A DNA stretch of 40,492 nucleotides from contig NXFV01000471.1 of NCBI GenBank assembly GCA_002803225.1, forward strand, positions 1 through 40,492, read 5' to 3'. Position numbers and translations under genes: made by a program. Of this stretch, positions 1-16,999 are shown piece after piece; positions within the stretch are counted from its first letter, which is position 1; the number at the start of each line of letters is the position of its first letter. The notes under the pieces were generated by a model, which was not told where the DNA came from, searched no databases, and worked only from the letters and a program-made list of their open reading frames with translations. The DNA is from Gamarada debralockiae (taxonomy: Eukaryota; Ascomycota; Leotiomycetes; Helotiales; Hyphodiscaceae).

Positions 1-2789
1 CTAGGAGGACTACTAGTAGGGAGCACTTGACTCCATAGAGAAGATAACAGATCAACAGGTAGATTCTAGGGTCCTAGCTACTAGATAGCAGTTGGGAATC
101 ATTTAAACACCTCCTCTATTAGATAATTAGGAACTCACTCTTCCTAACTAATACTCGGATAGAGCAGGAGATAGATCTATAGATAGTACTAGAGTATACT
201 CTTATAAGGGTACTCTATACTCTTATAGGCTATATCTAAGAAACACTGTCTATTTCCATTAGAGTATAGCTAGGCTACTACAGGCTAATAATAACGTACT
301 AGTATTAGACAATAACAGCTATAGAGAACTCTAAGAAATATCAATAGGAGCTAAGGATTTATATAAGGAGTACTTATTATCTAGAGGGAGGCCCTGGCGA
401 CCTGGGAAAAGCAGTATTACTGGAATACTACTAAGGTGACCTTTAATATCAAAGCCCGTTTATTAGCGATATAGATAGACTCTTTAGAATATCTTTAGAA
501 AGCTCCTGATTATAATTGAACTCCTAACCCTAAGCGCCTTTGAAGTTCTTATTATTAAAGAAGATTTAAGTATTAGAGAATTTATTAAGCTAGTAATATA
601 TTATTTATTCTTATATCTTCTTTTATACTTAATTAAGGGACTAGTACTATAGACCGAAGTAAAGGAGATAGATCTAGGAAAAATAGCTACTTAGGTATAT
701 ACTATATTTACGACTACTTATAAATATATTACTTTATATAGTATAAAAAGATAGAGAAAAGTTAGCTAGCTTAGATCTAAAAAGTACTTTATAGATTATA
801 GAGATAAAGATAAAGTTATACTAAGCTTTTTATTAGGTATTAGTAAGAATTAGTATAGACTCTTTTGATCTTAATTAAGCCTAGTAAATTATAAGGAAAA
901 GAATATAAATCTAAACTTTAGACTATTTTATTAAGTATCTAATATAAAGATATAGGATCTTCTTAATAAAGATATAGTACTTAGAATTACTATAATTTAG
1001 TAAAGGGATTAATATACTATAGATTTTTCTATATATTATATTACTATTACTAGTATATAAGAATTATTTAATACCTTAATAAAAAGTAGCTAAACTACTT
1101 ATAAATCTATATATACTATTAAAGTCAACTATAATTAATAAAGATAGAGAGGAGAGATATAACTTATATTAATATATATAAATATTTAGGGGAGAGGATC
1201 TATAGAGTATACCCTTATTAGTATACACTAGTAAGCCCCTTATACTATACAGCTTCCTACTCTCTTAAATACTTTTAAAGAGTTTATAGAAAGTAGCTAC
1301 TTTAAATAAGTTCAAAAGTAAGATAAGATTAGTCTTCCTTATTAAAGTATATACTTTGCTATAGTTATATATAGTCCAACCCTAGTATATATATAACTTA
1401 CTTAATAGATCCGGGATTTAAGTATTTATAGGGAGTTTCAGATTAGTTAGGTCTTATAGGTAGTCAAGCCTATTATATTTAGTATAGGATTAGCTATACT
1501 TATTTAAGAATACTTTATAGGACATAAAGTACTAATAATATAAATATTTAGGGTAAAAGAGCTTATGCAAAAAGTATTAATAGAAGTACTCTAATGTAGT
1601 AATTAATAGTACTCAAGAATTGCTCTTAGTAGACGAATTAGAGTCGAGTAATGATTTTATATTAGAAGTCTTAGAATAGGGATACTAGCTTTGTCTAGAC
1701 ATATAATTAGAATTACTTGAGTACTATAAGGGTAATAGCTAGTTTGCTTAGTATATTAATAGTGAGCTAGGGAGATTCCTTTGACTTACTTCTAGACCTA
1801 TATACCTCCCTTAATTAGGCCTATCTTTATCTGAGTCCGCTTTGTATAGGTTCCCTATATATAATTATATAGGAGAGGTATCTATTAGGCTTTATTAATA
1901 TTAGATAGTTATATTAGGTTATTTGGGGAGAGGTATTAGAGATAATAAGTAATAACTTAATAAAGCAGGGTAACTAGTTATAGTAGATACTAGTGCTTAT
2001 TAGTTCTTAATACTCTTTGATATATAACTAGGCCTAGTAGAGGCTAAAGATAAGAGAGGATCAAGAGTAGTTTAATTCTTTATATTCTTAGATAGTTAAT
2101 TTCAAGGCTTATATTTATAGAATTAAAAGCCCTCTAGTATATAAGTATCTTTAGGAAGAGAGATATCTTTGGCTTTTGTATTTATATTATATAAGAAATT
2201 AGTCTTAATTATATTTAAATATACTAAATAGTAGTCTTATCTTCAAGCTTTTTAATATATTTGTGATATACTTATTACTATTTCACTTGCTTTATAGAGG
2301 TTTAGGTTAGACAGGGATTTATATTTAGGTCAAATAAATAATAAATATAAATATAGAGCTAGAACAAATAATAATAGTTAATCTTAAGAATAATACTTTA
2401 TATATAGGTCCTTTATTTTATTATACTACCTTAGATACTTATTTTACTTTAATTTCCCTTCCTTTAAAAGCTTCCTTTAAAATCCCTAGGGGCTAGGCCG
2501 CTACAAGTATACTACTATATAATAAATATAAAAAAAGTATAAAAGGTAGCTATTTGTATATAATATCTTGGCCCTAATAGTCCCTCCTAAGGGACTCTAA
2601 GACTATAGACGTACTTATATAGTTAAAGAGGGATATATCCTATAGCTTTACAGGTATCAAGAGCTATCTCTTGTATACTATATATATAAAGCTTATATCT
2701 TTATTTGTAATATTATTATGCTTGTCTGCCTTAAGTACTAACCTTACTTTAATACTTAATTTAATGTTATTGTCTTACTTCCTTTAATA

Positions 2790-3570
2790 TATAATTTATC
2801 TTTGCCTTAGGTATATCTTTACTTTATTCTTTACTTTAATACTTACTTTAATACTTACTTTAATACTTATTTTACGACTTTAATAGTAACTTTTTAGGCC
2901 CTTGTTAACTCGAGCTAATAAGGGTAATACTATACTTATACCTTAAGTACTAACCTTACTTTAATACTTAAGGTATATACTTTACTTTATTTCTTTTATT
3001 AATACTTAATTTATTTTTACCTTAGGTATATATCTTATTTTATTCGTTCCTTTAATACTTAATTTATTTTCGCTTTAGATATAGGCCTTACTTTATTTCT
3101 TTCGTTAATACTTAATTTATTTTTACCTTAGGTATATATCTTACTTTATTCCTTCCTTTAATACTTACTTTAATACTTACTTTATAACTTTAATAGTAAC
3201 TTTTTAGGCCCTTATTAACTCGAGCTAATAAGGGCCTAAAAAGTTATTATTAAAGTTATAAAGGAAGGTATTAATAAAGGAAGATATTAAATTAAGTATT
3301 AAAGAAAAGAATAAAGTAAAGAAAATATCTTAAGTATACCTCTTACTTTAATTTTTTCCTTTAATACTTAATTTATTTTAGCCTTAGGTATATACTTTAC
3401 TTTATTCCTTTCTTTATTCCTTTTGTTAATACTTAATTCTTCTTACCTTAAGTACTCTTACTTTATTCCTTCCTTTAATACTTACTTTAATACTTTTCTT
3501 TATAACTTTAATAATAACTTTTTAGGCCCTTATTAACTTGAGCTAATAAGAGTAATACTATATTATTATA
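2790..3570. repeat. Array of diverged repeats around a CTCGAG-centred palindrome
   Basis: A unit rich in TTTAATACTTACTTTAATAC strings, followed by AACTTTTTAGGCCC and a CTCGAG core, recurs near 2890-2935, 3190-3235 and 3490-3545. The middle copy continues into its own reverse complement. Positions 3181-3262 form a near-perfect palindrome centred on CTCGAG at 3219-3224, and weaker inverted similarity extends outward to roughly 3120-3350. Such a structure could be a cruciform-forming repeat or two element ends joined head to head. No coding capacity is visible. Confidence 0.7.
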
Positions 3571-3654
3571 AGTCTTAGCTTTTGCGCTTTTATATATAAA
3601 AAGATAAGTAAAAAGGCTTATAATACCTATATATATACTATTTCTGTTAGTTAT

Positions 3655-3810
3655 AAAAATACTAGTATCTAGCTACCTTATATTTCTATTAGTCACGAAA
3701 ATACTAGTATCTAACTGCCCTGTATTTCTACTAGTCGCGAAAATACTAGTATCTGACTACCTTATATTTCTACTAGTCACAAAAAATACTAGTGCCTAAC
3801 TACCCTATAG
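3655..3810. repeat. 42-bp tandem repeat, about 3.5 copies
   Basis: The string ACTAGTATCT recurs at 3661, 3703 and 3745, with a diverged copy at 3788 (ACTAGTGCCT), giving a 42-43 bp period. Units differ mostly by C/T and G/A changes (TCACGAAA versus TCGCGAAA; CTGCCCTGTA versus CTACCTTATA), consistent with transition-type decay of a once uniform satellite. Confidence 0.75.
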
Positions 3811-4609
3811 TAACTTTGTACTTAGCCTACTATAATAAAGCATAAAATTTATTATTATAATTATTAAATTATAAGATATATAAGGCTTTTAAAGTATATT
3901 AAATATAATATTTAATTAATTAAAAAGAGCTATATTTATTTAATTAGAGTTAGTTTTAGTATTAGTTTTAGTAAGGTCGGCGTTCTAGAGCTTAAGAGTA
4001 CGTAGGCTACTATACTGCCTATGCGCTTACTTCATGCGACGTACGTCCTAAACCGAAGCCTAAACTCGTGGTCCACGTAAGGAATTTTAGCCTTAAGTCT
4101 AAGGTTACTTTAAAATACTTAAACTAAAAAATTAACTTTTGAAGTTCCTAAAGTATTTTTTACTTAAAATATTTATAATTTTAAATCTAGTAAAGTTATA
4201 AACTTAGTTTTTTGACTAAATTAATACGCTTAATTAGTTTTACTAGATTCTTAAATTTTAGGGTTATAATCCTAGAATTGACTTAATTCTAAATAGTTAC
4301 TTTTTAAAGTACTTTTTAAAGTAAAATCTTAGAATTTCCCTTTACTTTAATAATTTATAACTTTAGATCTAGTAGGCTTATAAACTTAGTTTTTTTACTA
4401 AAATATAATATAATATCTACTCTATTAGATTCTCTAATCTTAGGGTTATAACTCTAGTTCTTATTAACTTATTACTAACTACTATTTCATAGGTTTTTAG
4501 TTAGTATTAACCCCCTTGTATTTTAAGCGAGAATCTGGCGGTTAGTCTAAGGGCCAGGCAAAGGCATACCGCGAATAACTGTTAGTCGATTCGCCGGTGT
4601 TTTAGATCC

Positions 4610-4873
4610 TCCTCTATATTAGATATATCTGGAGTTTGGATCTATTCTATATTAGATATATCTAGAGTTTATATCTATTCTATATTAGATATATCTAGAC
4701 TTTATATCTGTTTTATATTAGATATATCTAGAGTTTATATCTATTCTATATTAGATATATCTAGAGTTTATATCTATTTTATATTAGATATATCTAGAGT
4801 TTATATCTATTCTATATCAGATATATCTAGAGTTTATGTCTATTCTAGGTCAGGTATCTCTAGAGTATATATC
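4610..4873. repeat. 33-bp satellite, about eight copies
   Basis: The palindromic core GATATATC recurs at exactly 33-bp spacing (4622, 4655, 4688, 4721, 4754, 4787, 4820, then a diverged copy near 4853). The unit reads approximately CTATTCTATATTAG, then the core, then TAGAGTTTATAT. The two edge copies are the most diverged. Internal copies differ by single transitions. No gene overlaps it. Confidence 0.85.
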
Positions 4874-4899
4874 CCTTGTAGGTTAGATAACTCTAGACT

Positions 4900-7800
4900 A
4901 GACGGCTCTTCTAGAGTTAGTAGCTACTTCTGCTTAATCCTATAGTTGACGACTAGCTACTTAATACTTAACGGGGGCATCACTTGCTACTAGTGGTCTA
5001 GGGTGAGATCCTACTCTCCCTTCCCCTACTATACTACCTCTTATAGTAAGTAACTTATTGTAGGACTACCTAGGACAAGATCTTGCCTCTGGTGCTACGC
5101 TATGTCCTGTCCCAAGCGATTCGCGACTGAACTGATCCTGAGCTACTAGTGCCACGTCTCTAAAACTCTACTATAGAGATCAAAGAGTAGCGGCTGAAGC
5201 TAGGTCAGGTAGTCGCCGTTGAGCCTATAGCTCTGTATCTCTTGGGTGATCGAGTGCCCCGCTTGCTATGCAAAGAGCTTGTGGATTATAGTCTAATTAG
5301 GTGGTTCTTATAGCCCCTTCTAGTAAGGGAGTAGCAAATGCTTTTAGCAGATTCCGATAGCGACCTAGCGATAGAGCGCGACTATAAAGGTCATTAATAG
5401 CTAGCGCTCCTAGCACGACTCTCGTAAGATCTCTATTAGTAATACTATCGCCCAAAAGCCCTACTTTATTGCCGAGACAATGATATCTAGACTACTCTCC
5501 TCTTCATCTTAGCTCTCTAATCCACTATCATCTTCTCCAAAATCACTGTCCCATCTGCTACTACCTATTTCAGGGCCAGTCTCGAGATCCTTCTAATTTG
5601 GAACCAATTCGATATTAATCTGCCTATAAGTCGGCTATAGATAGTAGGGCTACTCAGGACTAGAGAGATTGAGTTTCGTATAAAGGTAGTATACAAATGG
5701 CTAGATAAATACGAGATAAGAGTAAAGGAGGTCGCTAACAGACGAAGGGAGAAAGTAGATAATATAAAAGGGTAGTAGAGTACCGGCTATGCTCTTATTA
5801 TACTGTATTAAGATATAGAGCCAGCCCTCGTGAATCAGAATATTCCGTATTATACTCTCTATATTACATACCTTGATTAAGAGCAGTTCAGGCCCTCGTA
5901 GCGGCTGGCCAGTGGTCTAGTAGATAACGAGAAGGAGGGTACAAAGGAACTAGTCGTAGTTGTTAAGGTAGCGTAGGCGCGCTCTCTCAGTCTACTGTCC
6001 GCTCTTTAAGGCAAGCCAGTAGTAGGAGGATATATTAATAAAGGCCTGCGTACAAGCGTTAAGTCGCCGCTGATTTGGCTGTAGGTTCAGAAACGAGACG
6101 CCTAGCTCCCGGCAACTAATCGACTCCGAGAGGGCGTCTAATAAGGGTAGACCCAGCGCCCTAAAGCCCCCTATTAGGCTATTAAGCTATTGCCAACCGA
6201 GACTAATTATGCTATAGATCTAGTCTCGAAATACCGTTATCGTCAGGGACTGTGCGCCCATAGCTACGACACGGTTCTCTTGCGACCAGTAGAGTAGGGT
6301 TCGGCTAATATCCCGGTCACGGACCCTCTGGCCTAAGGCCCGCAGCCGCAGTAGTTCAACTAAGAGTACGCAGCTCCCTTAGACTATATACCTTATACGA
6401 ACGGATTGAAGCCGCGCTAAAGGGTCATTATACGAGTCCCGACTAGGCTACTATTGACAGAGATATAGCTTCTGAGGCAAGGTATATTCGAGAAAGAACA
6501 AGTGGCTTATCTAGATTAGGCTAGAGAGAATACTCATTAATTATGCTATAGGGATAAAGCTGTATCTCGTTACTGAGCTAACGGCGAGGTTAAGGCTAAG
6601 TATACCTATAAAGTAAACAAAGAGGTTACTACTCGATACTGACTAGGCGTTAGTTCGATAGGTAAGAAGGGATATGTTTAGCTCTATTAAGTGCTTCTCT
6701 AGGTCTCGCTTAAGACTCGATCTAATACTAGATAAGTAGTTAAGAGCTAGGTCGCTTGGATCGAAGAAGCGGCTACCCGTCCGCTTTTAGTAGACTATTT
6801 AAGCGTGGCGCCAGACTTCCTCCACTAAGATATACTACGGAGAAGTAGTCTAATAGTAAATATATAATACCTGGTCCTCGAGCTCTTTACTAAGTTGGCG
6901 TGCCCGGAATAGACTATACAAAAGACGTTTCTAGTAGCTGAGATACTAACTAATAGACCGAGGTTCCTATAGCTAGCTAAATGCGTCGCGGTACAACTTG
7001 TACTTATGCTAGGACTTAAGCTAATACTAAAATATATATAGTATCGAGTGAAAGGTAGCCTTATACCGCTCAAAGAGCTACTACTAAGAGGCAAGGATAA
7101 TCCTAAGAATATCTTCTAACTCAGCAGAAAAGAAGGCCTCAAGTAGCTTACTATTTGTGTTCTGTTCGTTACAGAGCTATAAAGGGCTACCTTATCGCGG
7201 GAGATAGGTTACCTAGCAGAGCGTATGCCAGTATAAGCGCTATTGGAACGTCTGTAGCCAGTCTATCTACTTAAGATACGGGCTCGTATCGCCCTTCGCC
7301 TGGGTACCGACTAGGTGCCGCTCCGTGTACAAATCAGGGGCGGTTCGCCTTAATTTCGATAATAACGATAGAGGCGTAGGGAGGGAGGCTAGCTGTATCT
7401 ATACTGCCTAGAAGATCCTATAGCCGCCTAAGTAACGGGGGAACTAAGTCTGTACAGGGACGAGCCAGTACTGAACCGCCCGGAACTAACCCTTCTCATG
7501 CTCTCTTTTCAGGTGCTTTCGTATTATATCTTAGCAGAACGCCCGGAAGTAGCTAGGTCCTAGGCAGACTATATACTCTAGCGCTTCCACGACCTTCAGC
7601 CCCTCGAAGACTAGGCTATTCTCAGGCAAGGAACACAGTAGCTAGCAGCGGCTGTTTAGCAGCGCCTTGGCAAGCCTAGGTCGGGCCTAGACTAGCTCAA
7701 GGAGCTGGCGCGGGGGAGGAGGGTCGTGGAAGTCAATTAGATAACAGTACAAGAGGTGCTGCACATAATAGAGAGGTGGGTGATACTTTACCGGATAGGC

Positions 7801-8000
7801 GTTAGCGGCGACGATAGTCGTACACAGGCGGCAGAAGACAAAGGGGCCGTTCGCGACCGTAATAATATCGAGGAAATCAAGGTTCAATAGTATCTTAAGG
7901 AGAAGTAAGGAGTAATAAAGGATAAAGATAACAGTGAAATAAAGCTTACTAAGGAGCGAATCGAAGGCGAATCAGTATTAATACAATATAGAATAGGTAG
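4900..8000 (-). pseudogene. RIP-decayed coding relic of an unidentified repeat
   Basis: Base composition is more balanced here than to the left, but every frame is interrupted. On the minus strand, long stretches still read as ordinary protein broken mainly by TAG/TAA where Gln codons would be expected. Around 5598-5520 the frame reads KDLETGPEIGSSRWDSDFGE and continues into an acidic Asp/Glu/Ser-rich stretch with a TAA. Around 5220-5165 it reads NGDYLT, stop, LQPLLFDLYSRV. CAG/CAA to TAG/TAA is the C-to-T change RIP makes on the coding strand. I do not recognise the protein family; a large transposon-encoded protein is the likeliest source. Confidence 0.55.
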
Positions 8001-8016
8001 GGAAGAAGAGGATACT

Positions 8017-8260
8017 TAGCTTATTATTAAGTCGGACTTAATACTTATTTACTATTATATAGTAGTCTATTCACATAGGAAAAGGAGGTAGGCTAGAAGA
8101 AACATAATAATGACGCGAGGTCGAACGCGACTCGGTACGTAGTGGGGCTAAGCGAGATTAGGGTCTAATAGGCGACAGACATCAGCCCTCTAGAGAGGGG
8201 TTTTCTATAGGCAGTAGGTCAGCGCTAGTATTATTAGCAAGGCGTGTGGACCACAGGCCT
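8017..8260 (+). repeat. Dispersed repeat Y, copy 1
   Basis: This block aligns with 17918-18350. Shared strings include GGACTTAATACTTATTTACT, GAGATTAGGGT followed by A/CTAATAGGCG, and GAGAGGGGTTTT followed by TATAGG/TATGGG. Copy 2 carries an extra 183-bp solo LTR plus target duplication that is absent here, so copy 1 shows the empty site. No coding sequence is evident. Confidence 0.75.
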
Positions 8261-8329
8261 TATATTTATAAAGTAATATAGCTTTAAAGTGAAATATAAC
8301 CTAGCTTAGCTCGCCTAATCGGCCGGGGT

Positions 8330-8612
8330 TCTAATTAGCCCTAAAATATAACCTAGGGCTAGGTTAAGTTAGGAATTGAGGATAGGAATAAAATATAAGT
8401 ATAAGTATATCCTAATTATACTATATATTATATATACTCTTAGTAAGGGATAAAACAAAAATAATATAAAATAAAGGTTATATACTTAAATATACTATAA
8501 AAACATATTAGAAAAGAAGTTGTACAATTATAATATATATATAGGTATCTATATATAGGTCCAGCTGCAAAAGACAAAATACGCCCGGCTGGCACGTGAC
8601 ATCCAGCTAAGC
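8330..8612 (+). repeat. Dispersed repeat P, RIP-mutated copy
   Basis: The block aligns with 17270-17508. Both contain AGTAAGGGATAAA, CCAGCTGCAAA, GGCACGTGA and GCGAGGTTG in the same order and spacing. Copy 1 differs from copy 2 mainly by C-to-T and G-to-A changes: the segment matching CGAGTATAAGCGCTTCCTGA in copy 2 reads TAAGTATAAGTATATCCTAA here. The 3' part, from about 8560, is better preserved than the 5' part. Confidence 0.7.
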
Positions 8613-9049: not shown

Positions 9050-10136
9050 CTACACGCCTCCTGGGCGACAGTGTTTGGGAAGATTCAGAACTTCCCTATC
9101 CTCGAACAGATCTTCCACAAACGTTGATCTACTCGGGCTTGCGAGGAGCAGTTTCATTATTGCTTTCTGTGGCTTCTTGCATATGCACAGCAAGCGCTTC
9201 ACTATCTCCACCATTTTCTCGCGACGGTCCTCTGGCTCTGCAAAGAATTGTAATCCATCAATAACGATGAACAAACGCAGGTCCTCACCGATGGACTCCA
9301 CTAGTTGCTCAAAGGCCTTACATATGCTAACAACCTCGGTTGGGATCAAGCTGTTCTTACAAGCTTGTAAATGTGCTGGAGAAAGCCAGTGACAGAATTC
9401 GACAAGCTGCAAAAGTAGACTCATCATGAGCTCTGATGGATTCGAGTATATGTCTAGCAAATCTCGATGCTGACCACAGAAGAAGGAGACTACCAAGATA
9501 TTGTGACTGGACTCCATGGTGAGAAGCATCGATTCGACAAGTTTGGCAGAGAAAAAGGCCGTCTCCGATTGCGGCAATGAAGACGAACCTCCATTTATTA
9601 GTAGAACGGCAGGATTGTCGACTAGAAGCCATGACCGGAGCTGTGTATCCCTTATCATCGCTAGAAGTCTGTCGTAGTCCAAATGTTGCAAATCGAATTG
9701 TATCCTGACTAGCTGTTTAAAGTCTTCAGGAACTAAATGCCGTTCATATTGGAAGAATTCCAGAAATTCCTCAGATGAAGGCCCTTGAGTCAACTCGGCG
9801 TTCTTTCGAGGATGCTTTTTATTTGATATTGTTACCCTTTTAGCTGAAGGAGAGTAAGCTTATAGGTACGTAAGTGTTCCAGGCTTATACACTAACCTTT
9901 ATTCCCAGATTGTACCTGGTTCCCTAATTGCTGTTTTAATGCTTGAAGAACATCTGTGAGTTCGCCTATTGAATGAAAAATTAGGCGCATTAATTTCCCT
10001 TCTGGCTTGACATTAAGTTAGTGGGAAGAGGATGACTCTTACTGGGTATATAGAAGGTATTACTGATTTGACCAGAGTTATGGTATACTTGAGAACCCTG
10101 GTTAATTCCCGAGGCAGCTGCAGAGCTTTCCGCCAT
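9050..10136 (-). CDS. STAND/NACHT-like fungal protein with N-terminal amyloid-type motif
   Basis: Three exons (10136-10043, 9965-9897, 9843-9050) with GT-AG introns of 77 and 53 bp keep one frame of 318 residues. Residues 9-28 read SGINQGSQVYHNSGQISNTF, an alternating Asn/Gly/Gln pattern like the amyloid-signalling motifs found at the N-termini of fungal NLR receptors. A Lys-rich linker follows, then a fold typical of fungal STAND proteins: LLINGGSSS where the P-loop should be, FFCGQH, and a Walker-B-like strand RLFIVIDGLQFF. The Gly-Lys-Ser/Thr of Walker A is missing, so nucleotide binding is doubtful. The C-terminus stops after the NTPase-like part with no WD40, ankyrin or TPR repeats, so it may be a minimal or truncated receptor. 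It is divergent from the hydrolase gene at 10889, whose C-terminus carries a matching motif. Confidence 0.75.
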
Positions 10137-10888
10137 CTTTACCAGCTAGAAGGTAATCCAAGTTGTGATTCAGTGAGTTCAGCAGGAGGAATGGCTTGTC
10201 GTCAGTCGCTTTCGGAGTGTGATGAACGTTGTTGCCACCAGGGCAAAGTCACTGGCCGCCGTCTTCTGATCAGCCACCATTAATGCTTCGGATTCAAAAC
10301 TTGTCGAAGACCCAGAAGGATAACATCAAATAAAGACAAACTTTGTTAGTCGTGCTATTTTGTTCCTAGAACCGTGCATTATTTTGCATCATTCTTTGCC
10401 GCATCGCTCGATTCGTAATTCCCCGCAGCACAGCCTCGCTGAGAATCATGTCAGCAAATCGGAGTCAAGCTAGGAAATACACACTGAAGGTCGTGCTGAA
10501 GAATCCTTTGCTGGGGAGTGCGCCACCGCGTTGCCTACCAGATACGCTGCCTGTGTGTTACTGGACCGTTTGAGCACCATGGAGTAATTTAATTATCAAA
10601 TCGCTAACAAGAGAAATTATCTACGCGGAGATTTTAAGCTAGGCAGCCTCACTTGTGCTGAAACATGCAGCATGTTGTCAACCTACATGGGGTTTTCAAG
10701 CTAGGCAGCCTCACTTATACTGCAGCATGCGGCATATTGTCAACCCGTACAAGTCGCTGGATGAACATGGCCTTATTTATTGCCCCACCTTGCTGGTCCA
10801 CTAGGTTCATATACGCAGTCCAAGCCGATTTATCCACCATTGTGATTCGAATTCAGACTCTTCGCGAGAAGTCCTATAACAAATCAGT
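10137..10888. promoter_or_regulatory. Divergent intergenic region with a 52-bp tandem duplication
   Basis: This 752-bp gap separates the start codons of the STAND-like and hydrolase genes and should hold both promoters. It contains two copies of a 52-53 bp segment (10632-10683 and 10693-10745), both with AAGCTAGGCAGCCTCACTT near the start and TGTCAACC at the end. They are diverged at several positions. Nothing else recognisable was found. Confidence 0.55.
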
Positions 10889-12135
10889 ATGAATGGACTT
10901 ATGGTTCTCCATGATCCCCAGGATCCTGAAATCGAGTAAGTGCTCCAGTCCTACATAGTGGATTAACCTTTGTAGACACAGATCTTTTGACACCGTAATC
11001 AGCATTGTCTTCATACACGGGCTCAACGGAGGTCGGACAAAGACATGGACGAAAGACGAGACACTATGGCCGGCCGAGCTTCTGCCCAAAGAAGCCCCTT
11101 CAGCCCGGATCTTGACTTATGGCTACGATGCCAATGTCGTGCACTTCTGGTCGCGACCTGCCGAGAATCGGATTGATACTTTCTCCAACGCTTGTTTTTC
11201 TCAGTTGACCAACAATAGGTCCGCAGTTGATGCTGTAGGTTATAAATAGGATTAGTCATCGCTTTTACTTATCCCACAGAAATGTGATACTCATGTCATT
11301 AAACTACACAGTCTCATCGGCCCATAATCTTCGTCGCACACAGTCTTGGAGGCATTGTTCTTGCCAATGTATGTTGTCTATGTACATTAGCGTGTGGCCA
11401 AGATACCGAAGGGCTGAAAGGGCTAATCTGCTCAGGCACTCATTGACGCAGCATCAAATTCCTATAGCGAACTCTCAGCTTGCGTCCGTGGTATTATCTT
11501 CCTGGGTACGCCTCATAGAGGCTCCAGCAAGGCGAAATGGGGTGAGCAAGCTAGAAAATTCCTCGCCTATTTCAAGTCAACAAACCCCCAGATCTTGAAA
11601 GATCTAGACGAGAAATCAGAGAAGTTGGCTAAGATAGGCGATGCATTCCCTTCTCTGCTGAACACTCGAGGCAAGCAAGCCAACACACGAATCGAAGTCG
11701 TCTGCTTTTACGAGGGACAGCCGATGGGCAAATTGGGGAAGGTTAATACTAATTGATATTCAACGTCAACAGAACTGTCGCTGACCGTGTGGAAAGATCG
11801 TAGACGAAACGTCAGCCACATTGGCCGGCTACGAGAAAATCGTGCTGGATGCAGATCACTCCGAGATGTGCAAGTTTGCTACTGATGATAGTAACAATTA
11901 TCGTCAAGTGGCTGGCCAACTTACTAAATGGTGCAAAGACTTCTCCAAGCCTGCGGATGCCCTGGCTAATAAGGTTGGTGGCCATGTCTGGCCTTGAATT
12001 CCACGAAAGGATATAAAACTGATCCAGTTTTAGGAGGGCGTTCACAAAGCTTTTTTCTCAGGCACTAATTACGGCCTCCAGCAATACTCAAACACCGGTT
12101 CTCAAACAAATAATTTTGGCTTCAAGAGCAACTAG
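10889..12135 (+). CDS. SesB-like alpha/beta hydrolase with C-terminal amyloid-type motif
   Basis: Six exons (10889-10935, 11003-11234, 11312-11368, 11436-11741, 11797-11973, 12034-12135) join into 306 residues in one frame. The protein shows the hallmarks of the serine-hydrolase domain used as effector in fungal NLR systems: DIVFIHGLNGGRTKTW (oxyanion loop), WPAELLP, ARILTYGYDANV, the nucleophile elbow VAHSLGG, GIIFLGTPHRGSS, and a late His in DADHSEMCKF. After the hydrolase domain, residues 282-301 read SGTNYGLQQYSNTGSQTNNF, followed closely by the stop. This matches the motif at the start of the neighbouring STAND-like protein at 10 of 20 positions. The last intron has a weak donor (GTTGGT); without it the protein would end in GGHVWP and lack the motif. 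Known SesB-like effectors act at membranes after amyloid templating, and the same role here is inferred. Confidence 0.75.
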
Positions 12136-13006: not shown

Positions 13007-16000
13007 TCAACCAGATGTGTCTGAATCATTGCTGGTGCTAGTGCCTGTGTCATCATCGTCGCCACCTTTAGCATTGCCTTCAATTATCGGATCAAATTTT
13101 TGCGTCGGTGTTTCTTCTGACTTTGAGCCGCCGGCAGATTTGCTTGGCTTCCGTAGTACAGCTTCTTGTCCTAGATGTGCAATCGAGGCAGGTATTGGTT
13201 GGTAAACCTTTACTGCCCTCACGGTCCCAGGGACATATTCGTCGTTTCTAACAGATTCGTTCCTCGCAGCACCTGCATCCTCTCCGCGGACATTGACCAT
13301 GTATTCCTCAAAGTCCTTGGCCGTCTGTGCAATCTTCATGAAGTTTTCTCGGGTTAGGTGGATCTTGAGGTACTTCTCCTTGCCATTCTTCTTCCCCTTC
13401 CTCTCAGCCTGCTCCTCCGTTAATCCTTTTCTTTTCAACATCTTTATGCGATCTGTGCGCCCAAGTGCAATGGCTGTTTGAAAGGCGTTTCGGATCTGTC
13501 GTCCATTCCACGTTCTCTTGAACTTTTCATGCTCCTGGAAGTGTGTTTCTGCAAAGGAGAGCAACTCATCCTTATCAAACTCTACTTTGATGGTCTGTGT
13601 TTCGTTATCACGGCTAATGCGTCTTAGAAGATTATCCCACAAAGCCTTCGTCGAAGCAAGGTCGAGACTTGGATAACGAAGAGAAACGTGGATTCTGGAC
13701 TTGAAAGCCTCGTCGATGACACCAATTCGATTAGTAGTAAGAAAGAGGATGCCGGAGTAGTACTCCAAAACTCGTAGAAACACTGTCAACATGTTATCAT
13801 AATGACTCGCTATGCTCAGAGATTAGAACCTCTGTCCTGTTGAACATACCGGAAACCGCCGCATTCCGCTCGATACTGTGCCAATCTCTCTTCGCCATAA
13901 AGATGTCGGCTTCATCCAAAAGGAGGACACATCCCCACTTGTTCGCCAATCGGAAATGATTCTCAAGGCTCCTCTCGATATGTGCCGCTACTGTGCCGAT
14001 GTCTCCACAAGTGATTGAATACAACGGCCGCTTTGTGTATGCAGCTATTGTCTCGGCCGTACTTGTCTTGCCAGCGCCCGGTGGACCGTGTAGAAGTATA
14101 ATGAGTCCATTTCCCTTTCCAGAAACGAGATCCATATGTCCCGATGCACTTGTTTCTAGTTCCTGGACATTTTTAGACCCCCTTGCATGGTTCTCAACTA
14201 GGGAGAGCAGTAGCTGTCGATAACTCGTCGGAATGACAAGATCTTTGAAACCCCTCGTCCTCTCTTCATCAGTTGTATTAATATCTTTTACATCATCAAC
14301 CGCTAGGAAAACTAAAGAAAAATTAGTCCTTAACCTGCTTAGTTGGCTTGCTTGAGGATCAACTTACGCCAGCGCCGCGACCGAAATATATATCCAAAAA
14401 CATCTGCAGGAAGGAGTTGATGCTGCTCATCACTCATCGAATCTTCATCCGGATTGATGGGACTCAGGAAAGCTGAACTTTCTCTGAGGAATTCTTCCAT
14501 TCTTTCAGTCTCAACGTCGTTATCTGCCTCACTCTTGGTTCTTGACCCTGGGGGGGAAGGGGGTTCTCTGTATAGACGGTTATTCCGATACTTTTTTCCT
14601 GGCCGGCGAGTCTTAAAAGTATATTCAGAATTATCAGGGATTATGCGGCTTAGTTTGCCGAACGATGGGTTATGCTTGGTCCAGCCGCCAGTTTCCGAAT
14701 ATCCGGTATCCGGATCAATGTATACCTCTCCTACAACCTCTTCAGGGGTCCGTGTCGCTATTCCATAGTAGAGCTTATGCCCACGCAATGACATATATCG
14801 CTCACCGCGTTTCCGCAATCTTTCGAGAATGATATCAGTCTTGCCGCCAAAACCAGCTGGGCGAACATTAAGCTCGCTGATTTCCTTCACCCCAGAAAAG
14901 TGTCCAATATTGAAAGTATGCTGACATGGCGCAACAAAAACACCGTCGAAGTCCATATAGAGGCAGTCCAGAATCAGCGGGCTGTAATGACCGACACCAG
15001 CGCTGTAGTGACCGACACCGGGGGGAGGTGGTGGCGGACCTCTAGCGAATTCGGCTCCGGATCGTTCACCCCCTCGAGGATGTACACTCCTCCCAAGGAA
15101 AGCATCATATACGATCTCTTGCCCTGAATATGACTCCGCGTCCGAAAGCCGAAGTCTGCCGCCGGAAATAGAGTATACGACGTAAGCTCGCTCGTAGCCA
15201 TGCAAGGGTGACAAAACAACGTCTCCAGGGTTGAACAGGTACCAGAGATCTTCGAAAGCAATCGTCTTAAGGGTTTTTTTGTCCACGCCTTCAAGAACCT
15301 CAAGAAAATCGCTAAAGTCGTCCCTAATAAGATTAACGAGGCATTTCAGGTGTTCCCGTTTCAAGAGCAGGCTGCGTTCTGGCGGATTTTCAGATCTATC
15401 AAGGACTTCCTCGAGTTGCGCAAGTCTGCTTTGGATTTGAGGCCAAAACAAGAAAATTGCCTCAATACAAGCGTTAGCTAGTCAAGGGGATTTTTATTGT
15501 CATGTTTCTGACCTTGTAAGGCGGAATAAATCTGGAAGTTGGTCAATCTCTTGTTATTCTAGGCAAATTTTCATAACTGACATTAGAGGAACTGTATCGA
15601 ACGAGGTAGATATCAGATTTTCCAGCTCAGCGATCAAGATTAGTGAGTTAACGCGAATTCGTAAGGGCCGCTTCGTGGTCCTAATGACAGTTGATTGGAG
15701 CCTGAGGTTGCCTTTGCCTTCACTGAAGCCGTCCCAGCCAGTTCCTTGGTTTGGCATGTCTTTGCAATAAGCAACAATGACGTGGTCATTGTGGGCTGTT
15801 TTCCAGTCCGGATGGCTCATATCTAAATCCATTGGCGCCCTCTCTACCCGACATATTAGCTCCACCTCGGTCTTCGTATATCGTCTTCGGTGGTGGCTTG
15901 CTTCGTCTGAATATTCTAGACTCGCATTATCGCTGCTCGCATTATCGCTGCTCGCATTATCGCTGCTCGCATTATCGGTTGGAGGAGGTTCGAGAGGCGT

Positions 16001-16177
16001 GTCCCCTTCATCGAATCCTTCAATGCGTTGCAGAGTCCCCGAGACCTCCTTCAATTGCTCAATTTCGTCGCTAAATGTGAGACGTGGTTCATTTTGTTCC
16101 AGGATCCCGATGACATTGTCGATCTTTCTGCAAAGTGCAGAAAATCGTGAAAGTGCGTCAACATTGGACTCCTCCAT
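13007..16177 (-). CDS. Fungal AAA ATPase with DUF7025-type N-terminal region
   Basis: A large AAA ATPase, about 976 residues in four exons: 16177-15578, 15460-14368, 14311-13850, 13782-13007. Introns two and three are canonical; the first (15577-15461, GTTATG donor, GAG acceptor) is my best reading and is uncertain. The N-terminal half contains IAFEDLWYLFNPGDVVLSPL and CLYMDFDGVFVAP, typical of the DUF7025 region in fungal AAA proteins. Walker A is GPPGAGKT (about residues 640-647) and Walker B is VLLLDEADIF. These are followed by FLTTNRIGVIDEAFKSRIHV with the arginine finger, then a C-terminal lid and an acidic Asp/Ser tail. The cellular role of this fungal subfamily is not established. Oddities are a DNASS repeat in exon 1, a run of Pro, and a duplicated GVGHYS. 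Confidence 0.85.
15921..15975 (-). repeat. 15-bp coding tandem repeat (DNASS units)
   Basis: The unit CGCTGCTCGCATTAT on the plus strand is repeated exactly at 15931, 15946 and 15961, with a partial copy at 15921. Because the period is a multiple of three, it adds DNASS units to the AAA protein without breaking frame. Exact copies suggest recent slippage and a site likely to vary between strains. Confidence 0.85.
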
Positions 16178-16999
16178 AATGAACGTTCAAAACGATTCCG
16201 AGGAGCCCTACGGACGTCGAAAATCGAGGAGCCAAAGCCTCGCCAGCGCGACGGTGTCTTTCGTTGAGTGAGTGGGCCTGCTTACCGAAGGTACCGATGC
16301 CGGACCAGTGTGCTACCGTGGTTCTCAGTCGTCCGGAGATGTTAAAGGGTTCATCATAACCCAGAGACCTCAAGATTACGAGTCTCAGCTGAGATTTGCA
16401 CAGGAACACGAATTTTGCTACCCTAGCGCCAATGAATAATATGATTTACAACACTTAAGTCGCAACAACAATCACCACAAAAAATCAGTCACACCGTAAA
16501 AAATTGCGCTCTTTTCTAAGATTATAAAACCAATTGAGCTGATTTCAGATCTGCTTTCTGTTTTTTAGTAGCTGCTGTTGTTGTTAAAAAATGAATTAAA
16601 ACGTAAAAATATAAAGTCTTAGCGAACACGATACTGTTCAAAGGCAGATTAATGATTCAGTCACCCCCATCCCACCCCCCTGGGGGCCTGAATCTAGGTG
16701 GCTATGCCTCTTCTGGAGGCGGTGAATCGTGCTCTGCAAAGGTCATTGGCTTGCGTAATTTACTGTGGCAAAGACGCATTTTTCGTGGCTGGTGATTAAA
16801 AAACACCAGGTGTGTAAAAAAAGGGATGAGCTAAATCAACTCCACTCCCGGCTAAATCAACTCTTTAGTCATAATTTCGGGAGTACACTTATCAACCTTA
16901 TGCCACAGTAGTAATTTGTATACAAATGCAAGGCACAGAAGTGTAATCGTGTAAATATTGAATTATAATCAAAAGACCCAGAAATGAAGCTATTCCTAA
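16178..16999. other. Upstream region of the AAA ATPase, nothing else recognised
   Basis: AT-leaning intergenic DNA with short A/T runs (AAAAAATTG, TTGTTGTTAAAAAATG) near 16490-16600. There is a C/G-rich patch at 16661-16690 that could pair with itself (CCCCCC next to GGGGG). It probably carries the AAA ATPase promoter. No gene or repeat family was identified. Confidence 0.45.

Follow-up and report, generated by a model that had tools for sequence, protein, structure and literature searches.

Two neighboring genes of Gamarada debralockiae, predicted to encode a STAND-like, receptor-like protein and a SesB-like alpha/beta hydrolase, have in common a short motif related to the fungal PP motif, and we put at roughly 60% the probability that they form an amyloid-signaling pair in which the receptor-like protein activates the hydrolase, probably for cell death. 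The sequence itself shows the paired occurrence of the motif, its conservation among relatives of the hydrolase, the kinship with PP within the hydrolase family, and, in each partner, a tyrosine where PP has its second core glycine. The pair is likely PP derived, with a core altered in both motifs, and likely built on a STAND-like protein without a P loop.

The window, i.e., the whole stretch of 40,492 nucleotides that was analyzed, corresponds to positions 1 to 40492 of contig C207 in a genome of 54.3 Mb and 1,112 contigs. Relatives listed with names for the hydrolase and the receptor-like protein were all fungal. The two genes are divergent and head to head, with 752 bp between start codons. 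The gene models comprise six exons for the 313-residue hydrolase (10889-12135, plus strand) and three for the 318-residue STAND-like protein (10136-9050, minus strand), with the following features.

9050-9843, minus strand: receptor-like exon 3, AAA+/STAND-type core without Walker A (gene model, NPHP3_N, AlphaFold2)
9897-9965, minus strand: receptor-like exon 2, linker (alignment to the linker of longer relatives)
10043-10136, minus strand: receptor-like exon 1, start codon and N-terminal motif (predicted splice sites GTAAGA/AATAG)
10053-10112, minus strand: motif, receptor side, SGINQGSQVYHNSGQISNTF, residues 9-28 (sequence, shuffles, alignment)
10137-10888, no strand: intergenic stretch between the divergent starts (752 bp)
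10889-11973, plus strand: hydrolase exons 1 to 5 (10889-10935, 10982-11234, 11312-11368, 11436-11741, and 11797-11973), SesB-like alpha/beta hydrolase (gene model, DUF676, fold of relative P0026)
12034-12135, plus strand: hydrolase exon 6, tail and stop (identical-type tail in records P0026, P0027, and P0029)
12058-12117, plus strand: motif, effector side, SGTNYGLQQYSNTGSQTNNF, residues 289-308 (sequence, relatives' tails, shuffles, alignment)

All seven introns run from GT to AG at their predicted splice sites, with one acceptor of the rarer AAG type (11796), and an in-frame stop codon lies immediately 5' of the start in receptor-like exon 1 (fragment 9993-10145). Among these predictions, splicing of hydrolase exon 6 is supported because the protein records of relatives contain the tail that it encodes, and splicing of receptor-like exon 2 because the exon aligns with the linker of longer relatives. 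As the initial annotation had stated, both motifs appear once introns are resolved, here by removal of the predicted GT-AG introns. Its expectation that automatic gene calls would miss them was wrong for the effector: records of named proteins in Aspergillus nanangensis, Stachybotrys chartarum, and Phialocephala subalpina already include the tail. The receptor motif was found at residues 9 to 28, where it had been placed before, and the hydrolase motif, previously numbered 282 to 301, falls at residues 289 to 308 of the 313-residue model, so the inner introns of the earlier model must have differed. Were the last hydrolase intron (11974-12033) retained, the hydrolase would be motif-less, and retention of the first receptor-like intron (9966-10042) would give a 48-residue peptide, barely more than the motif; either is a possible splice switch.

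The surroundings of the pair were also surveyed. Positions 1 to 8500 of the window showed RIP-type dinucleotide bias (TA/AT, 1.4 to 1.8; (CA+TG)/(AC+GT), 0.26 to 0.59), which was found in neither gene of the adjoining pair. Truncation of the receptor-like gene by this RIP-marked flank was considered and dropped, as relatives end shortly past the same point and the gene itself is without RIP bias; at the position of its TAG stop (9050-9052), the relative nearest to it, P0001 (at 75%), has a tyrosine and ends 13 residues later. On the other side of the pair, successive frames at 13007-15481 (minus strand) matched DUF7025, AAA, and AAA_lid_13 and were recognized as a fungal AAA+ ATPase gene. An open frame at 15554-16186 (minus strand) was noted by eye to contain SDNAS repeated in tandem. 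The frames between 19282 and 38756 included those of an aromatic-ring hydroxylase, an SDR, a glyoxalase/dioxygenase-type protein, an MFS transporter, an FAA hydrolase, and a beta-lactamase-like enzyme, which together may represent a cluster for aromatic catabolism. A search of the window against Rfam returned nothing.

Between hydrolase residues 289 to 308 and receptor residues 9 to 28, 10 of 20 residues (S, G, N, G, Q, Y, N, G, N, and F) were identical, as the initial annotation had reported. Over 22 aligned positions the identity was 10/22, which resembles the 32 to 48% motif identity within PP clusters reported in the available part of PMC7885112. The alternating agreement described earlier was likewise found, with identities at 9 of 11 alternate positions versus 1 of 11 other positions (Fisher two-sided, P = 0.0019). 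In the six hydrolase tails, mean entropy was 0.25 bits at alternate positions versus 0.76 bits at the others. Such a pattern is what would be expected with one constrained face of a beta strand.

The hydrolase matched Pfam DUF676 at 20.4 bits (cutoff, 20.3), shows the alpha/beta-hydrolase fold and the conserved serine and histidine of SesB-like proteins, and is a predicted lipase that may act on membranes. Among the 120 of 641 matches that were listed, five relatives (P0026 to P0030) were 56 to 72% identical to it and ended in tails of the form F-x-G-x-N-x-G-L-Q-Q-[Y/H/F]-x-N-x-G. A tree was built, with tails removed beforehand, from the window protein together with the first 40 relatives listed, except P0035 (odd extension) and P0039 (a fragment without a tail), which left 38 of them. 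The window protein and P0026 to P0030 formed a six-row clade (support, 99/98), the sister of which was a clade of six records (support, 97/95; joint node, 100/96); four of these six had canonical G-[F/L]-Q-L-G tails, and the other two (P0032 and P0038) were motif-less as annotated. The pattern NxGxQx[G/Y/H/F]xNxG was found in just nine among 155 retrieved proteins, namely, five relatives of the variant clade and four canonical ones. By the tree, the effector motif is derived from, or sister to, PP. Homologues without the motif had been named beforehand as evidence against the pairing, and here the answer is a half one: on the effector side the motif was kept in the five nearest tailed relatives among the matches listed, and on the receptor side, where the records of close relatives begin at exon 3, it was absent from more distant relatives. 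In the same genome, inspection by eye of translated frames at six further SesB-like loci revealed no PP-like tail. Two SesB-like frames (L032 and L033, on contigs C593 and C311) had, by eye, G-rich ends (AIGIGNQKVEGGFHIRK and AIGIGSQNVHGGFHVRT) followed by a gap and then an NTPase-like frame, and these ends are candidates for another short terminal motif.

Assignment of the motif to a class was less straightforward. The PP signature is NxGxQxGxN in the accessible text of PMC9815663, and a G-phi-Q-phi-G core is common to PP and RHIM according to the portion of PMC7885112 consulted. The flanks of the PP pseudo-palindrome are present in both partners as N-x-G-x-Q-x-Y-x-N-x-G, centered on Q. The core reads G-L-Q-Q-Y in the effector and G-S-Q-V-Y in the receptor, with Y at the second core glycine position in both window motifs (Y, H, or F in hydrolase relatives), and by the core definition the window motif is therefore not PP. 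The earlier statement that the motif fits no named class cleanly is supported. Pfam Ses_B, which serves as a PP motif profile in an excerpt of PMC8086366, matched the effector tail weakly (14.2 to 15.0 bits; cutoff, 23.2) and did not match the receptor at E values up to 1; among five variant tails compared with it, it matched weakly those of the window protein, P0026, and P0030 and left P0028 and P0029 unmatched at E values up to 1. This cutoff is insensitive, and missing it means little, because the canonical PP pair of the same genome (on contig C171) also fell below it (17.0 and 14.0 bits). Searched against the whole genome, Ses_B gave no match at an E value of 0.001, as in 14 control genomes; at an E value of 10 it matched two HELLP-like frames, on C171 (18.8 bits) and C1078 (16.8 bits), both below the cutoff, and one control genome, that of M. 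jannaschii, was also matched. On the effector side, common descent with PP-bearing proteins was found, its clade being sister to the clade with four PP tails among six records. Of the classes with which the initial annotation had proposed a profile comparison, the hydrolase tree and the weak Ses_B match of the tail point to PP rather than to sigma or HRAM. NACHT_sigma (PF17106) matched neither protein and neither terminal peptide at E values up to 1, and a sigma assignment was dropped for lack of a profile match; the motif is about 22 residues long. For HRAM, a family of 21-residue HET-s-type repeats, the one profile used, Pfam HET-s, gave no match at E values up to 1, and the motif is present in a single copy.

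The closest known arrangement is the PP signalosome (PNT1 NLR, HELLP, and SBP in C. globosum, with a two-gene form in P. anserina), in which a motif is likewise shared between the N-terminus of one protein and the C-terminus of an adjacently encoded one and in which SBP is, like the window hydrolase, a SesB-like effector. The N, G, Q, N, and G of the pseudo-palindrome are also retained. The window pair differs from it in that the second core glycine is changed to Y in both partners, in that the receptor-like protein has neither the Walker A motif nor the TPR repeats of PNT1, and in that no HELLP gene was recognized beside the pair. The sigma system of Nectria haematococca (SesA, SesB, and Het-eN) also joins a SesB-type hydrolase with a C-terminal motif to an NLR-like partner, but its motif is about 40 residues long with internal repeats, as described in part of PMC5485727, compared to about 22 residues and no NACHT_sigma match in the window. 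The RHIM of mammalian RIP1 and RIP3 is likewise a short N/Q/G-containing motif with a central Q; its core, G-(I,V)-Q-(I,V)-G in the excerpted PMC7885112, differs from those given above for the window motifs.

An apparent ordinary PP pair was found on contig C171 of the same genome, in a divergent-neighbor layout like that of the window pair (L029, 4867-5760 on the minus strand and from 5955 on the plus strand). It consists of a HELLP-like protein (PF17111, 61.3 bits) with the C-terminal end GFQIG and a PNT1-like N-terminal frame with GFQVG, with 194 bp between start codons. The frame after GFQVG matched TPR_10 (184.8 bits) and, just below the cutoff of 23.5, NB-ARC (21.4 bits), and the N-terminal and TPR/NB-ARC frames probably belong to one intron-joined gene. 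A second HELLP-like frame (L028, contig C1078, 4600-5060), 43% identical to that on C171 and with the PP-like end GYQAG, has TGA and TAG within the matched stretch; it is possibly decayed or split by an unmodeled intron.

One may suppose a single PP network in which the variant motifs cross-seed with the C171 pair and the hydrolase is an extra effector of that NLR. Precedents exist in the available parts of the literature, where PNT1 of C. globosum controls SBP, a SesB-like putative lipase (PMC7885112 and PMC5485727), and where one NLR is thought elsewhere to serve several effectors (PMC7889193). In ungapped BLOSUM62 comparisons over 22 residues, the receptor motif also scored 28 to 41 with canonical tails from four hydrolases of other fungi. 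Its mean score was 38.0 for variant tails versus 29.3 for canonical motifs; by these scores it is less specific than its hydrolase partner and not sharply variant specific. Against a single network, the hydrolase tail scored 6 with the PNT1-like motif of its own genome versus 45 with its neighbor, and it is without the core glycine that PP and RHIM have in common in the excerpt of PMC7885112. The C171 pair scored 56 within itself, and the HELLP-like motif scored 22 with the window receptor. We regard a single network as unlikely; the altered core probably keeps the window channel apart from the ordinary PP pair. Between three parallel motifs of P. anserina, no cross-seeding was detected, according to the part of PMC7885112 available.

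The receptor-like protein is not a standard NLR. Its exon 3 matched NPHP3_N at 27.1 bits (cutoff, 24.8), and the AlphaFold2 model of the core (pLDDT, 89.3) is of the STAND-type AAA+ kind. The Walker A pattern GxxxxGK[ST] was absent from the window protein and from 35/35 relatives, neither the window protein nor any of ten long relatives had recognized C-terminal superstructure repeats, and the frame ends about 20 residues past the core. Against the pairing, the motif itself was observed in a single genome, and its pattern was found in 0 of the 35 retrieved relatives; the records of the nearest four (P0001 to P0004) begin at exon 3, and longer relatives have some 300 other residues at that place. 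Exon 2 matches the family linker, and the motif exon therefore occupies the place of the relatives' long N-terminal region. These longer relatives (P0146 to P0155) are Goodbye/DUF7708-type STAND-like proteins with a homologous core and linker, equally without Walker A and recognized C-terminal repeats, and their N-terminal region, which contains no such motif, was DUF7708-like in nine of ten, below the cutoff. "Goodbye" is what we take to be the completion of source names reading "Fungal STAND N-terminal G." An unrecognized long N-terminal domain upstream was also considered and dropped when tblastn with 11 relatives gave no match there. A PDB sequence search with the receptor returned two uteroglobin-fusion matches (E values, 0.002 and 0.004), judged spurious, and no relatives of P0001 or P0026 were found in IMG/VR scans. 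The NLR/effector layout proposed by the initial annotation thus stands in part: a divergent STAND-like/hydrolase pair has N- and C-terminal motifs as in fungal amyloid signaling, but the receptor is not a standard NLR by its lack of Walker A and recognized repeats and by the different N-terminal region of its relatives.

A core without Walker A makes an NLR-like trigger hard to picture, which counts against an amyloid-signaling pair. The receptor-like protein might instead be a brake or decoy in which ATP binding and sensor repeats have been lost and whose motif caps or sequesters the hydrolase instead of seeding it. The missing Walker A and repeats agree with such a role, and the divergent layout of the genes would permit joint expression of both proteins. 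The position of the motif at residues 9 to 28 and the gene layout are, however, those of activating receptors, and the absence of Walker A from the core goes far back in the family rather than being a recent loss. We consider a brake or decoy less likely still than a single PP network.

The similarity of the receptor peptide to the hydrolase tail was assessed further by shuffling. Over the full lengths of the two proteins, no ungapped alignment of 20 residues scored higher than the motif pair (BLOSUM62 score, 50), a score reached against the hydrolase tail in 0 of 2,000 shuffles of receptor residues 1 to 45. With the register fixed, shuffles of the receptor 22-mer gave ten identities in 10/200,000 cases. 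A profile hidden Markov model was built from the five hydrolase tails of other organisms, with the window tail left out, and scored 8.1 bits against receptor residues 1 to 45, 11.7 bits with composition correction off (equaled in 3/20,000 shuffles), and 4.5 bits against the whole receptor (11/20,000). In a scan of 1,200 six-frame fragments of the window plus the two proteins, receptor exon 1 ranked next after the hydrolase. From the shuffles and the window-wide E values together, and considering where the match lies, chance is an unlikely explanation, though the match would be insufficient alone in a blind scan. It counts against the pair that a genome-wide search with each window peptide returned only the peptide itself, whereas one with the PNT1-like peptide of C171 found its HELLP partner (E value, 0.0038). 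Least probable of the alternatives is that the motif is real in the hydrolase tail only and the N/G/Q/S-rich receptor peptide a chance match, which would agree with the window-wide E values (0.15 for exon 1 and 0.97 for the full receptor), the lack of the motif in the retrieved homologues, and a register picked after the match was seen, but not with the profile score being equaled in only 12/20,000 composition-keeping shuffles, with nine alternate-position identities arising in 0/200,000, or with the peptide lying at the N-terminus of a divergent neighbor, the usual place. Judged by these comparisons, the motif shared by the hydrolase tail and the receptor-like N-terminus is real.

For the preferred reading, an amyloid-signaling pair, the following sequence of events is proposed. 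The receptor-like core, having no Walker A and no recognized sensor repeats, is probably a P-loop-independent adaptor or scaffold and not an ATP-switched NLR, and a partner or ligand would cause it to assemble. The window motifs would form amyloid, with the N-terminal motif of the assembled receptor-like protein seeding and templating its counterpart at the C-terminus of the SesB-like hydrolase. The templated hydrolase would be switched on, the outcome probably being cell death. Tentatively, and at somewhat less than even odds, we suggest that this channel became orthogonal by a domain swap, in which a P-loop-less, sensor-less Goodbye-type STAND protein had its N-terminal domain replaced by a PP-derived motif, with the core glycine turned aromatic in step with the hydrolase partner, and that it runs insulated beside the ordinary PP pathway of the same cell.

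A natural pair with the same core-position change in both partners would provide a direct test of what sets specificity in amyloid signaling. The presence of the motif on a STAND-like core without Walker A throughout the family would call into question the need for an ATP-driven NLR switch in amyloid-signaling receptors. The apparent replacement of an N-terminal domain by an amyloid-type motif within one family would represent one route from all-in-one receptors to two-gene signaling.
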